Assembly: GCA_003565555.1 (NCBI GenBank)
Contig: PXBH01000045.1
Coordinates: 1-46,979 of the forward strand
DNA from: Cryomorphaceae bacterium
GTDB taxonomy: Bacteria; Bacteroidota; Bacteroidia; Flavobacteriales_D; Cryomorphaceae
Length of the DNA: 46,979 nucleotides
Direction of reading: 5' to 3'
Shown here: positions 41,870-46,979 of the stretch, piece after piece
Position numbering within the stretch: the first letter of the stretch is position 1
How the letters are laid out: each line of letters starts with the position of its first letter
Made by a program: the position numbers and the translations under genes
The notes under the pieces: generated by a model
Database searches by the model: none
Told to the model about the DNA's origin: nothing
Seen by the model: only the letters and a program-made list of their open reading frames with translations

Positions 41870-43201
41870 ATGATGAAAGTCTTCATACACCCGTTTTTAT
41901 CGTTTGCGACCCTTTTCGCCTTCCTCAGCTTCCTTCCGGAAGCGGAAGCCCAGTCACCGCCCGGGTTGATCAATTACCAAGCCGTAGCGCGTGACGTGAC
42001 CACGGGCGCCGAACTCACCGACCGGGAAGTTTTCTTGCGCGCGCTGGTGCGGAGGGGAGGGCCTTCGGGTACGATCGTGTACCAAGAGTCTCACGCTGAT
42101 GTGGAGACCGACCTCTTCGGCCTGTTCAATGTGCAGATCGGAGCGGGGGAGGTGTTGATGGGCAGCCTCTTGGGCGTAGACTGGGCTGCAGACAGCTATT
42201 GGCTTGAGATAGAATTGGACGCCGGCGAAGGCCCCGAATCGGCAGGGGTCATGCAGCTTGTAGCCGTACCGTACGCTTTTCATGCAGAGACAGCCACCAA
42301 TGTGGACGATGCCGATGCTGACCCGGACAATGAGCGCATCACCGAAGTGAGCTACAATGCTGCCGAAAATTCCGTCACCATTACAGAGGGCGGATTTGAA
42401 TACACTACGGGATTGGGGCCTGTAGACTTGGATATTGATCCGACAAACGAACTGATCACCGAAGTATCCTACAACGCTGCTGCAAATGCGATTACTATTA
42501 CCGAGGCGGGCTCGACTTTTTCGACCGGATTGGGTCCGATCGATCTGGATACCGACCCTACCAACGAGTTGATTGACACCGTTCAGCTCCTTGACAACAA
42601 CATCCTGCAAATTACAGAAGCCGGGATCGACCACGAAGTAGACCTCAGCCCCCTTACGGAGTCGGCCCTTTGGCAGTTGAACCCCGAGTCAGAGGCGGTA
42701 ATTAATACCGAAAATCAGATCGGAATGGGCACCGAAACACCCGGTGCAAGGCTGGGTATACGGGGGGATGCGGGCGAGCAGCTGCTTCGGCTTTCTTCTC
42801 AGGAGACTTCTGTTTTGACGGTGACCGGGAGCGAAATTCGCTCCGAGGAGGGAAGTATTTTTTCCGTAGAAGGACAGATGCGTTACGGTGTTACACTGCT
42901 GAACAATTCGGAAAATCAGGTGTATACGGTTGCCGAAAGTGATACCCATATCATTGTCCGAATCACGCCCGGCAATACCCAAAACGTGACGATCCAAATG
43001 CCCGATGCCGTTGTTCATCCGGGGCGTGTGATCACCGTGAGGCGGACGGGGGAATCGCCCATTTCCACGCTTACTTTGGTTACGCTGGAATTTAATGACC
43101 CGGTTGATTTCGGTGCTGCCGAGGAGGTCCTTCTGGGGCCTGTTCCCGATACACGCATCTATATCAGCATGGGTGAAACAGGCTGGACAAGAATACAATA
43201 G
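41870..43201 (+). CDS. Secreted repeat protein, tail-fibre/collar-like Bacteroidota family
   Basis: 443 residues. A signal peptide (about 1-27, ending AEAQ) precedes a Bacteroidota exported-protein module: GLINYQAVARD, VYQESHADVETDLFGLFNVQIGAG and QLVAVPYAFHAETA. Three tandem units of 39 residues follow (from residues 149, 188 and 227), then a GMGTETPGARLGIRG (GIGT-x-x-P-x-x-L-x-V) turn and a beta-rich end. No T9SS sorting domain is visible. The repeat and GIGT modules occur in many surface and fibre-like proteins of the phylum, but no function is proven. It is the first gene of a four-gene run, seven bases ahead of the type B cargo. Confidence 0.8.
   Translation: MMKVFIHPFLSFATLFAFLSFLPEAEAQSPPGLINYQAVARDVTTGAELTDREVFLRALVRRGGPSGTIVYQESHADVETDLFGLFNVQIGAGEVLMGSLLGVDWAADSYWLEIELDAGEGPESAGVMQLVAVPYAFHAETATNVDDADADPDNERITEVSYNAAENSVTITEGGFEYTTGLGPVDLDIDPTNELITEVSYNAAANAITITEAGSTFSTGLGPIDLDTDPTNELIDTVQLLDNNILQITEAGIDHEVDLSPLTESALWQLNPESEAVINTENQIGMGTETPGARLGIRGDAGEQLLRLSSQETSVLTVTGSEIRSEEGSIFSVEGQMRYGVTLLNNSENQVYTVAESDTHIIVRITPGNTQNVTIQMPDAVVHPGRVITVRRTGESPISTLTLVTLEFNDPVDFGAAEEVLLGPVPDTRIYISMGETGWTRIQ
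42314..42655 (+). repeat. Three tandem 117-base (39-residue) repeats within the secreted protein
   Basis: Units begin at 42314, 42431 and 42548, exactly 117 bases apart; the last is slightly short (36 residues). Each starts D-x-D-P-x-N-E and carries an N-x-(I/V)-x-I-T-E-(A/G)-G core followed by a (T/D)-L-(G/S)-P turn. Units 1 and 2 share ITEVSYNAA and TGLGP; unit 3 has drifted. The DNA differs more than the protein, so the duplication is not recent. Confidence 0.9.
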
Positions 43202-43208
43202 ATTTTTT

Positions 43209-43952
43209 ATGAGGCGGATTACGGCAGCGGTTCTTTTCCTTACGGCTTTTTGCTTTATCGCAGAAAATGTCCTCGGACAGGTCACTGCGGGCCGTCAGGT
43301 CTTGGGCTGCTTCGGCAAGTCGGTGCCTCCCGCTTCCGGGATCGCCGTGAGCTCCACTGCGGGGGAGGCCCTCATCGGTACCGCTGTCGGGACAAACTAT
43401 GCCGTGACCTCGGGATTTCATCAGCCGTCTTCGGCGGGCGGACTTTTTTTTGACATCATTACCGGCCCCTCATCTTGCCCCACATCCACCGACGGAACTG
43501 CGGCCGTGATCGGCATACGCGGCTGCACGCCGCCCTATTCCGTGACTTGGAGCAACGGGGTTACGGGCCATCAAAACGAGCGCCTGGCCCCGGGATTTCA
43601 CACGGTTACAGTGACGACTTCAGATTGTGAGCGCACATTCGGGTTTGAAATATCGGCAGATCCCGAGGGGACTTGCGTCCTTCGTTTTTTCAATGCCTTT
43701 TCACCCAACGGTGACGGGCGCAATGACCGCTGGGAAATCGAAAACATCGACCTGCCGGAATTTGCGGAAAACAGGGTGGAAATCTTTAACCGTTGGGGAA
43801 CCACAGTATGGAGCGGAGCGAATTATGACAACCGAGATGTGGTATGGTCGGGTGAGACGAGCGGCGGAAACGCCCTTCCGGACGGGACTTACTTTTTTGT
43901 GGCCGTAGTAGGGGGAATCACCCACAAAGGCTATGTGGAACTGACCAAATGA
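43209..43952 (+). CDS. Small T9SS type B cargo with a SprB-repeat-like domain
   Basis: 247 residues from the ATG at 43209. Signal peptide (about 1-23). The mature N-terminus has the SSTAGEALIGTAV...VTSGFHQP module frequent in T9SS-exported proteins; residues ~87-140 resemble one SprB repeat (C-x-TSTDGTAAV...GCTPPYSVTWSNGVTG...GFHTVTVTTSDC). The last ~90 residues are the gliding-motility-type C-terminal domain: NAFSPNGDGRNDRWEI, VEIFNRWGTTVW, LPDGTYFFVA, type B sorting. Such cargo needs a PorP/SprF partner, which starts within its stop codon (ATGA). It is tiny compared with SprB itself (thousands of residues). Confidence 0.88.
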   Translation: MRRITAAVLFLTAFCFIAENVLGQVTAGRQVLGCFGKSVPPASGIAVSSTAGEALIGTAVGTNYAVTSGFHQPSSAGGLFFDIITGPSSCPTSTDGTAAVIGIRGCTPPYSVTWSNGVTGHQNERLAPGFHTVTVTTSDCERTFGFEISADPEGTCVLRFFNAFSPNGDGRNDRWEIENIDLPEFAENRVEIFNRWGTTVWSGANYDNRDVVWSGETSGGNALPDGTYFFVAVVGGITHKGYVELTK

Positions 43953-44872
43953 AGCGGTGTATTTTCATAGCGACCGTTTTGCTCACCGCACTCTCCTCGG
44001 GAGTGTCGGCCCAGCAGCAGCCCGTGTACAGCCAGTATATTTTTAACCTTTTTGCCGTAAATCCCGCATATGCCGGCGCCCGCGACGCCCTCTCGGCCAA
44101 TGCGGGTTACCGCACGCAGTGGGTGGGTTTTGACGGTGCACCCGTTACGGGGAGCTTTAACCTTCACGCCCCGCTCAAAAACAAGAATATGGGCCTCGGA
44201 CTTGAGGTGGTCAATGATGCCGTAGGTGCGCGAAATGCCACTTTTGCGGGCGCGGCCTATGCGTACTATCTCAGGCTCGACGAGGCGGGAACGCAAAAGA
44301 TATCCCTCGGTGTAAGGGCGGGCGCTGTGAATTATCGGTTTGATTGGGACGCTCTGGAATACCAAAATCCCGGCGATCCCGTGGCTTTCAGCACCAACGG
44401 AAATATTTGGGCACCCAACGTGGACTTCGGCGTCATGTACCTGGCTCCGAAAACGTATGCAGGAGTGAGCGTGAGCAGTCTCAGGCAATCCCGAATCACT
44501 GAAGTTGCCGCGGGTGACGCACGCCTCAGCACTGCTCTGAATGTGCAGGCGGGCCACATTTTCACCCTTTCGGAAAATTTACAGCTCAAGCCGTTTACTT
44601 TTCTCCGCTACGACCTGTCGGGACCGGCACAGTTTGATCTGGGTGCCTCTGCGCTCCTGATGAACAAGGTTTGGCTCGGAGCCGCATACAGACATGATTT
44701 CGGCGCTGTGTTCAGTATGCAACTGGTGACCGGAAAAAATTTGGTGATCGGATATGCCTATGATTGGGCCCTGAATAACCTCGTAGCCGTGCAAAGCGGC
44801 ACACATGAAATATTTCTGGGCATTGACTTCACCGTATTGGGTCAGCCGCGAAACAATGTGCGCTACTATTGA
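43949..44872 (+). CDS. PorP/SprF family T9SS outer-membrane protein
   Basis: 307 residues. Signal peptide ends near SAQQQ. The family signature is exact: PVYSQYIFNLFAVNPAYAGA, then YRTQWVGFDGAPVTGSFNLHAPL; the remainder is alternating beta-strands of a transmembrane barrel ending in Tyr-Tyr. SprF is known to be required for export of SprB through T9SS, and family members pair with type B-sorted cargo encoded next to them, as here. Its ATG overlaps the cargo stop (ATGA) and its TGA overlaps the TTG of the OmpA gene. Confidence 0.95.
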   Translation: MKRCIFIATVLLTALSSGVSAQQQPVYSQYIFNLFAVNPAYAGARDALSANAGYRTQWVGFDGAPVTGSFNLHAPLKNKNMGLGLEVVNDAVGARNATFAGAAYAYYLRLDEAGTQKISLGVRAGAVNYRFDWDALEYQNPGDPVAFSTNGNIWAPNVDFGVMYLAPKTYAGVSVSSLRQSRITEVAAGDARLSTALNVQAGHIFTLSENLQLKPFTFLRYDLSGPAQFDLGASALLMNKVWLGAAYRHDFGAVFSMQLVTGKNLVIGYAYDWALNNLVAVQSGTHEIFLGIDFTVLGQPRNNVRYY

Positions 44873-46979
44873 GAAGGCTTGCCCACATAGCCATCGTTTT
44901 TATGTCGGTAGCTGCTCAAGTCACCGCACAAAGTGATTTTTGCACACAATTTACTGAATTGGCATACAGGGCCGAATACCGCTGTGCCTACAGCTTATTA
45001 ATGCGCGGGATGACGAACGGCTGCACCGGCCCGGACTATCGGGCCGCTGCGGCCGAGGTCCTTGCCGCGCACGGGAATTACGATGAGGCTTACGCTCTCG
45101 CTGAGGCGCTCCGCGATGAAAACCCGGATGACGAAGCTGCGGAATGGCTCTTCCGCCGCATGGCTTATATCAGGCACGAGGCGGTGCCCGTGCTGCCGGC
45201 GGAAGTCTTACGCCTACATGCGGACGGTCCTGCCGGCGACCTGCTGCTTGCCGCTGCAGACGCAAGCGGCCCGGTACTCTTGCTGCGTCCTCCGCCCGAT
45301 ACCGTCTATTTTCCCGCAATGCGTGTGCAGGAAAGCGGATACCGGCTGCTTCGGGAAGATTCCCTTTCGGCCGCTTCTGCCTACGCGGTGTGTACGAACG
45401 CCAAAAATTTCCTTGAAACGGGCCCCGCCGTAATGCTGCCCGACAGCACGTGGGTTTTTACCGCGCGCAGCGCCGGAGGCTCGGGTATGAAGGCGCGCCG
45501 CCTCAAGCTCTACCGATGTGACCTCAGCGGGGAAAAGCCCGAGCTGAGCTTGCTGCCTTTCTGCAAGGGAAATGCCGATTATTTTCACCCTGCATTTGAG
45601 CCGCAAGAAGGATCTTTGGTGTTTGCTTCCGACAGGGCGGGCGGACACGGAGGAAGCGATTTATGGAAAAGCCCTTTAAGCCCTGACGGGTGGGGTGAAC
45701 CTGAAAATTTGGGGACTGTGGTCAACTCCGCTTTCAACGAGACCTATCCGCATGTGGTCGGCGACAGCCTTTTCTTTTCCTCTGACCGACCCGACCGCGG
45801 ATACGGAGGCGCAGATATCTATCTCTATAAAAGCACGGAGGCCGATGCCGAAAACCTCGGCCTTCCCGTTAATTCGCCCTACAATGATTTTGCGCTTACG
45901 GAGGATGGCGGCGGGGTGTATTACTTTGCATCGGACAGGCCCGTAAACGGATACGGAGACGCAGTCTTTTCTTTTCGAATTGAGAAACCCTCGCTCTTTT
46001 TCACAGATTTGAAGGGCATCATTTCAGGACCCGAAAATATGGAAGGCTCGGAAATTCACCTGCTGGGTGCAGAAGGCGATACCTTACAAACCTCCGTCCT
46101 CGGCAGGAGCGGGCGCTTTTCCTTTCGTGCGGTGCGCGGATTGCGAAGCTACGAGGTGGTGCCCGATGTAGAGGTCCCCGATGGTGTGCGTCCCGAAATC
46201 GCCTTTCTCGACGAAAATGACCAGATCTTTAAAAAAGTTCGGGCCGACAAAGGCGGACGTTTCATCTTTCAGCTGCTCACCCCCGAGGATTATTACCTCG
46301 AACGCATGGAGACGGAAGATAAAAGCATATTGGACATCAGTATATTCGGGCAGTACGTGGCGAAGGGAAAAGAAGCCTCCGGTGTGCAAATCATCTTGCA
46401 AGACAGCGAAGGAGAGGCTTTTGCCAAGGTATTTACCGAAGAAGACGGGTTTTTTCATTTCGAATCCGTGAAGCCCGACGGTGCTTACACCATTTCCGCC
46501 GAGGGTGTGACCGCCGATGATGTGATTCACTTGCTTGACGACAAGGGGTTTGTAATCGAAACAATAGAGCCGAACAGTGCGGGTGAATTCGTCTATGTAA
46601 GACTGGATCCCGACGTGAAATCGGTAACCCTGACCAACGAACTTCGGCAGCAGGTTCGCGTGGCTGCGGGCGATGAGATCAAACTCCCCGACGTCTACTT
46701 TGACCTGGATAAAAGTGACTTGACTGCAAGGAGCTTGCGTTCGTTGAACAAGCTTGTCACCCTCTTGCGAACCAACCCCGACATTCGTGTGGAGCTGGCA
46801 GGTCACACAGACTCGCGCGGCTCTGCCGAATACAATGCAAAGCTCTCTCAGAAGCGTATAGATGCTGTGGTAACTTATCTCATCAAGCAGGGCGTCAGCG
46901 CAGACCGAATTTCCGGAAAGGGATACGGGGAAGACAAACTGCGCAATCACTGCCGCGACGGAGTCCCTTGCACGGAAGA
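44869..46979 (+). CDS. PorE-like PD40/OmpA peptidoglycan-anchoring protein (cut by the window end)
   Basis: At least 703 residues, open to the last base. The TTG at 44869 overlaps the PorP stop as TTGA and gives a real signal peptide (MRRLAHIAIVFMSVAAQVTA); the next ATG (44902) would destroy it. Order: a TPR-like N-terminus (about 20-110), PD40/WD-like strands from about 238 (FHPAFEPQEGSLVFASDRAG; LFFSSDRPDRGYGGADIY; YFASDRPVNGYGDA), two carboxypeptidase-regulatory-like domains, and an OmpA-C domain from Val609 (VYFDLDKSDL) with AGHTDSRGSAEYN at 644-656, which binds peptidoglycan. This matches PorE, proposed to anchor T9SS to the cell wall. Only the end of OmpA-C is missing. Confidence 0.92.
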   Translation, partial: MRRLAHIAIVFMSVAAQVTAQSDFCTQFTELAYRAEYRCAYSLLMRGMTNGCTGPDYRAAAAEVLAAHGNYDEAYALAEALRDENPDDEAAEWLFRRMAYIRHEAVPVLPAEVLRLHADGPAGDLLLAAADASGPVLLLRPPPDTVYFPAMRVQESGYRLLREDSLSAASAYAVCTNAKNFLETGPAVMLPDSTWVFTARSAGGSGMKARRLKLYRCDLSGEKPELSLLPFCKGNADYFHPAFEPQEGSLVFASDRAGGHGGSDLWKSPLSPDGWGEPENLGTVVNSAFNETYPHVVGDSLFFSSDRPDRGYGGADIYLYKSTEADAENLGLPVNSPYNDFALTEDGGGVYYFASDRPVNGYGDAVFSFRIEKPSLFFTDLKGIISGPENMEGSEIHLLGAEGDTLQTSVLGRSGRFSFRAVRGLRSYEVVPDVEVPDGVRPEIAFLDENDQIFKKVRADKGGRFIFQLLTPEDYYLERMETEDKSILDISIFGQYVAKGKEASGVQIILQDSEGEAFAKVFTEEDGFFHFESVKPDGAYTISAEGVTADDVIHLLDDKGFVIETIEPNSAGEFVYVRLDPDVKSVTLTNELRQQVRVAAGDEIKLPDVYFDLDKSDLTARSLRSLNKLVTLLRTNPDIRVELAGHTDSRGSAEYNAKLSQKRIDAVVTYLIKQGVSADRISGKGYGEDKLRNHCRDGVPCTE

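Follow-up and report, generated by a model that had tools for sequence, protein, structure and literature searches.

A four-gene type IX secretion locus in a Cryomorphaceae bacterium that may mount a MAT-like fibre through a small secreted adaptor

Gene layout, barrel and putative anchor of the locus

The type IX secretion system (T9SS) locus described here lies at the end of a 46,979-nucleotide stretch of DNA from a Cryomorphaceae bacterium (contig PXBH01000045.1, forward strand), which we call the window. The window is one entire contig (G000:C205); the Bacteroidota draft genome to which it belongs measures 3.72 Mb and is 96.7% complete. Four genes on the + strand make up the locus and encode, in this order, a fibre protein of 443 amino acids (aa) that is similar to mosaic adhesive trimers (MAT-like) and has a signal peptide (41870–43201), a small T9SS type B cargo of 247 aa (43209–43952), an outer-membrane barrel of the PorP/SprF family of 307 aa (43949–44872) and a PorE-like protein of which 703 aa are present (44869–46979). 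Because the window is a whole contig and the fourth gene reaches its end without a stop codon, this last gene is truncated; its orthologues extend ~15–20 residues past the window's protein. On the evidence presented below, the adhesin of the locus is most likely the upstream 443-aa protein, a MAT-like trimeric fibre, and the cargo is most likely a secreted adaptor that holds it.

The first two genes are separated by 7 bases (TAG attttttATG), and the next two junctions are 4-base overlaps, ATGA between the cargo and PorP genes and TTGA between the PorP gene and the fourth gene. This is the arrangement given in a preliminary description of the DNA, and the sequence bears it out. Comparison of 14 loci that carry the same module indicated that the tight spacing is not due to chance: the 4-base overlap of cargo and PorP genes is possible in 11 of them, the PorP and anchor genes abut or overlap in most, and the −4 TTG start of the anchor gene is found again in three. 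Scans for promoters and terminators gave no meaningful excess. The comparison supports a single operon. That the overlaps fix the output ratio of the products, as had also been suggested, is not implied by them and stays unproven.

The third gene product is a clear PorP/SprF protein (PorP_SprF PF11751, E = 2.7e-68; TIGR03519, 239.9 bits with a cut-off of 90.55) and is proposed to shuttle and anchor the adaptor. The fourth has the Pfam domain order of PorE (TPR, PD40, carboxypeptidase-regulatory-like CarboxypepD_reg, OmpA), although its TPR match is weak and its PD40 propeller scores barely above the whole-protein cut-off; the OmpA match is clear. Against the NCBIfam model for PorE (NF052230), the truncated protein scores 194.4 bits; since the curated cut-off of 600 is not reached, we name it only PorE-like and regard it as a putative peptidoglycan anchor. 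The preliminary description had named a type B sorting domain, PorP/SprF and PD40-OmpA proteins as well as an SprB-like repeat. The first three are recognized by Pfam, PD40 weakly, and the SprB repeat has no match in the cargo at E ≤ 0.1. The pairing of the cargo with its own PorP/SprF barrel and PorE-like anchor likewise stands.

Such a pairing has precedents. In Porphyromonas gingivalis, a complex of cargo, PorP and PorE with a type B cargo is known (PMC9143113), and in Flavobacterium johnsoniae a cargo encoded beside a PorE-like gene appears to be static (PMC12618676). In two Saprospiraceae loci (L167:7598–9400 and L168:7620–9422), the PorP/SprF barrel is naturally joined to an OmpA domain within a single protein, encoded 3′ of a gene with the MAT N-terminal domain (MAT-N) and a larger type B cargo of ~410 aa, which supports joint action of PorP and OmpA. 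A second, larger PorE-like gene directly follows the first in five orthologous loci (L068, L070, L071, L073 and L076); the window contig stops before the position where such a gene could appear. In two of these loci (L073 and L076), a tandem pair of MAT-N fibre genes precedes a single set of adaptor, PorP and PorE-like genes.

Gliding requires a Cys-X-Cys motif in the tail of SprF (PMC12635249). The window PorP has no cysteine beyond its signal peptide, and none of the PorP proteins listed for the module has a cysteine in the C-terminal tail. Among PorP/SprF paralogues from the same genome (L004, L006, L007, L010 and L013), some carry C-tail cysteines and others do not. The presence of such cysteines may divide track-linked from static barrels.

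The genome has one full SprA and 14 PorP/SprF genes, and its sorting-domain matches number 39 for type B (CHU_C) and 136 for type A (TIGR04183), so that the locus is only one of many for T9SS cargo. A search of the genome with the 443-aa protein returned one further relative, on contig C7, and this copy repeats the whole set of four genes without a change of order: a fibre of 673 aa followed by a 242-aa cargo, PorP and a PorE-like protein (51, 48 and 37% identical to the cargo, PorP and PorE-like proteins of the window, respectively). The other PorP loci that we examined in this genome have cargos of 356 to >2700 residues or none directly beside PorP, and they have no MAT-like fibre gene.

The 443-aa protein and the small type B cargo

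No Pfam family matches the 443-aa protein, and neither Pfam nor NCBIfam detects a T9SS sorting domain on it, in agreement with the preliminary description. Its N-terminal domain (MAT-N, aa ~31–137, 41960–42280) matches the NCBIfam model NF053851 (Bdello_MAT_N) over the first half of the model (E = 2.1e-7, 30.9 bits), and the paralogous fibre on C7 matches it with E = 5e-12 and 46 bits. Because both scores fall short of the curated cut-off of 60 bits, we take the domain to be a distant homologue outside the Bdellovibrio subfamily. When 25 diverse family members from the surveyed genomes were searched, all 25 matched NF053851 and no other family (best E = 2.7e-13). A feature of the MAT superfamily, a conserved beta-rich domain of ~130 aa right behind the signal peptide, is present in the 443-aa protein as a beta-sandwich at aa 31–130.

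We then examined predicted structures. AlphaFold, run with a 13-sequence alignment, gave a confident N-terminal beta-sandwich (predicted local distance difference test, pLDDT, of ~80–93 over most of MAT-N) and a confident C-terminal domain, while the shaft between them, with three D.D.DP.NE.I repeats of ~39 residues that begin at aa 147, 186 and 225 (42308–42655), was poorly predicted. As confidence in the whole model is low (predicted template modelling score 0.31), only single domains were used. The tip domain (aa 337–443, 42878–43198) resembles phage tailspike and baseplate chains (TSP4, Solidus gp83, KP1 and T4 baseplate) with Z-scores of 9.2–11.6 over 87–97 residues and a root-mean-square deviation of 2.1–2.5, and these matches rank well above all structures listed below them. 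Sequence search retrieved no solved structure for the MAT-N domain at E ≤ 1. Fold matches to it (aa 28–143) had Z-scores of 7 or less, the level of ordinary beta-sandwiches, and were set aside as uninformative.

Pfam scans of ten family members found peptidase S74, collagen, C1q and Lcl_C domains among them; S74, collagen and C1q domains are typical of trimers. Taken with the domain predictions, this makes the 443-aa protein most likely a trimeric, phage-tailspike-like surface fibre related to the prey-touching fibres of Bdellovibrio; for this organism, we infer both the homotrimeric state and the surface exposure. The preliminary description had taken the protein for a periplasmic or surface partner, unless it left by another route; with its MAT-type N-terminal domain and tailspike/baseplate-like tip, it is no accessory. 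One could also suppose, from the missing sorting signal, that the fibre remains periplasmic as a spacer or scaffold and that the cargo alone is displayed. We consider this highly improbable, as the tip folds and terminal domains of the family are of binding or fibre type and the Bdellovibrio relatives are surface-displayed (PMC10769870).

The 247-aa cargo ends in a type B sorting domain (aa 155–247, 43671–43949) that scores well above the cut-offs of PF13585 (CHU_C; E = 4.6e-23, 81.6 bits with a cut-off of 27) and TIGR04131 (49 bits with a cut-off of 35). The predicted C-terminal domain also matches the fold of the T9SS-bound NucA C-terminal domain (8glk_D, Z = 9.1). Across relatives the cargo consists of a signal peptide, a conserved segment of ~50 residues ending in LTQGFQQP (hereafter the GFQQP segment; aa 24–75, 43278–43433) and the type B domain, which in longer cargos is preceded by an Ig-like domain. 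The single Ig-like domain of the window cargo (aa 77–152, 43437–43664) is SprB-repeat-like and probably a spacer, and it is missing from short adaptors. The cargo of the C7 paralogue matches the Pfam SprB repeat weakly, under the cut-off. AlphaFold predicted the Ig-like and C-terminal domains with pLDDT mostly >90, whereas the GFQQP segment reached only ~40–46 despite its conservation, as would be expected if it became folded only upon binding a partner.

Adaptors with a GFQQP segment occur in two versions. In the first, as in the window and on C7, the adaptor is of type B, lies mostly 3′ of the fibre gene and mostly has its own PorP and PorE-like anchor. The second version is of type A, ~140–190 aa long, lies mostly 5′ of the fibre gene and has no PorP; these type A calls were made with a profile that was itself derived from adaptors of this kind. 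Ten adaptors were checked singly: nine match TIGR04183 (eight above the cut-off and one slightly below) and one is dockerin-like. At L113:9927–10385, a GFQQP adaptor-like gene 5′ of a MAT-N fibre has a dockerin-like end in place of a T9SS sorting domain.

Genomic linkage and shared divergence of the GFQQP segment and MAT-N

We asked how often the two elements occur side by side, using MAT-N and GFQQP profiles built from relatives of this locus, which distant members may escape. In 60 related genomes, 48 of which have MAT-N matches, the GFQQP profile found 61 matches, and 51 of these adjoin a MAT-N gene on the same strand (upstream of the MAT-N gene in 31 cases, downstream in 20). Seen from the side of the fibre, 65 of 96 distinct fibre genes have a small neighbour with a T9SS sorting domain (47 of type A upstream, 16 of type B downstream, one of type B upstream and one of type A downstream), and three more have a GFQQP neighbour without a recognized sorting domain. 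An evenly sampled set of 148 Bacteroidota genomes gave MAT-N in 44 and GFQQP in 26, and 33 of its 36 GFQQP matches adjoin a MAT-N gene. By a rough random-placement estimate, chance adjacency would be ~0.3–0.5% per gene; because shared ancestry makes the matches non-independent, binomial probabilities were not taken as P-values.

A third sample was seeded on the cargo alone and was thus blind to the fibre, its seed being a subset of the cargo alignment. All six small GFQQP cargos in it follow a fibre gene, five as identified by the MAT-N hidden Markov model and the sixth after a contig-truncated fibre tip. None of the 87 larger cargos has GFQQP, and two of these 87 follow a MAT-N gene. The preliminary description had proposed looking for the 443-aa protein together with the cargo in related genomes; the two co-occur in many of them and, as a second full copy, in the genome itself.

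These results bear on the claim that the cargo is a mini-SprB, an SprB-like adhesin reduced to a minimum and served by an exporter of its own, and the upstream protein a partner of unspecified kind. The type B signal, the PorP neighbour and the one Ig-like domain of SprB type speak for it. However, the cargo lacks a Pfam SprB match, the PorP lacks C-tail cysteines, and the N-terminal GFQQP segment is tied to fibre genes and is absent from larger cargos of the same class. We consider a minimal adhesin of this kind very unlikely and reject the mini-SprB label on the Pfam scan, the PorP tail and the linkage of GFQQP to fibre genes.

Pairwise distances among the MAT-N domains correlate with those among the GFQQP partners (Mantel r = 0.58, 49 pairs), and the correlation dropped in 2000 of 2000 trials in which partners were swapped within genomes. 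As far as sequence comparison goes, this shows a co-divergence that is module-specific and exceeds the species signal, and it is no proof of contact. The fibre and the cargo might instead be two independent adhesins, co-regulated neighbours that do not touch: co-transcription suffices for a conserved gene order, and some MAT-N genes have no visible adaptor. Yet the co-divergence is broken by partner swaps, and type A and type B adaptors share GFQQP and lie next to members of one fibre family, in differing gene orders. Moreover, the type A adaptors have little besides the GFQQP segment and the signal and therefore no obvious adhesin part. We regard two independent adhesins as improbable. The fibre–adaptor gene pairing across Bacteroidota points to a possible mode of fibre mounting of which we found no description in open-access papers.

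A proposed anchored fibre and its relation to known systems

We propose that the operon makes a single surface-anchored fibre from the MAT fibre, the GFQQP adaptor, PorP and the PorE-like anchor, and assign this reading a probability of about 0.58. The fibre would be a homotrimer with the MAT domain at the cell, the repeat shaft between and the tailspike-like tip pointing outward, and would reach the periplasm via Sec without a T9SS signal. The adaptor would pass the T9SS translocon (SprA) by means of its type B C-terminal domain and then seat on the co-encoded PorP, and its GFQQP segment, predicted to be unfolded alone, would fold onto the MAT base of the fibre. The fibre would cross the outer membrane either bound to the adaptor through the translocon or separately, to dock on the surface. 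The PorE-like protein would link PorP to peptidoglycan, and the fibre is therefore proposed to be static. At loci without PorP, a type A adaptor would, from known T9SS biology, serve the same purpose via the general PorV/PorU route. What we computed directly are the gene families, the conserved operon, the genomic linkage, the co-divergence and the fold predictions; binding of MAT to GFQQP, the export route of the fibre and its static anchoring we infer from these.

Several observations weigh against an anchored fibre of this kind. Both fibres remain under the NF053851 cut-off; 28 of the 96 MAT-N fibre genes have no visible adaptor neighbour, some of them because they lie at contig ends or come first in a tandem pair; and genes inherited as one block would likewise show linkage and co-divergence. 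The low pLDDT of the GFQQP segment may stem from the shallow alignment (17 sequences). By eye, we saw no lipobox in the predicted signal peptide of the PorE-like protein, read from the TTG start, whereas PorE is a lipoprotein.

A related possibility is that the adaptor serves mainly for transport: it would attach to the periplasmic fibre and pull it along through SprA, any holding at the surface being incidental. It is favored by the signal peptide and missing sorting domain of the fibre and by the T9SS signal (A or B) that adaptors bear, save for truncated ones and the dockerin case. However, we found no precedent for T9SS co-export in the open-access literature, and the surface display of Bdellovibrio MATs also argues against it (PMC10769870). 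We rate such hitchhiking as unlikely. We know of no T9SS in Bdellovibrio, and since its MATs are displayed all the same, a T9SS-independent route for MAT-type fibres may exist.

The anchored-fibre proposal shares elements with three known systems. PorE-PorP-PG1035 of P. gingivalis (PMC9143113) and Fjoh_3952-3951-3950 of F. johnsoniae (PMC12618676) also combine a type B cargo, a cognate PorP-like barrel and a PorE-like protein, and in F. johnsoniae the three genes are neighbours, as in the window. Unlike in those systems, the window cargo is small, carries GFQQP and is preceded by the gene for a fibre without a sorting signal, and no lipobox is seen by eye in the PorE-like protein. The SprB-SprF gliding pair (PMC12635249) likewise consists of a type B cargo and a cognate PorP/SprF barrel, but the window cargo is far smaller and has no Pfam SprB match, its PorP lacks the twin C-tail cysteines, and a PorE-like gene is added. 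The MAT fibres of Bdellovibrio bacteriovorus likewise have a conserved beta-rich domain after the signal peptide, a variable shaft and tip, and tailspike-like or S74 ends; they are displayed at the surface, where their base reportedly binds some surface element (PMC10769870). The window fibre differs in being a distant relative and in being paired with a T9SS adaptor. We know of no counterpart of this adaptor in Bdellovibrio.

In the open-access literature on T9SS together with tail fibres, MAT or endosialidase, we found no fibre–adaptor pair described. On this evidence, the locus is a type B anchoring module of the T9SS and would mount a MAT-like fibre via a docking adaptor, within a wider two-gene pairing in Bacteroidota. 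More tentatively, and with somewhat less confidence than for the operon itself, we suggest that the T9SS places GFQQP sockets on Bacteroidota surfaces for trimeric MAT-type fibres that have no T9SS signal of their own, the MAT-N base being the plug. The type A version would be a socket of ~60 residues, left on surface glycolipid after loss of the signal peptide and C-terminal domain, and the type B version a socket on a PorP pinned to peptidoglycan. If true, this would connect type B anchoring by the T9SS with mosaic trimeric fibres, fields that are separate in the open-access papers searched, and would account for the surface retention of fibres without a T9SS signal. It would also supply two-gene pairs open to direct modelling and testing, and offer, in Bacteroidota, a candidate answer to the question of what the MAT base binds, which was left open for Bdellovibrio (PMC10769870).

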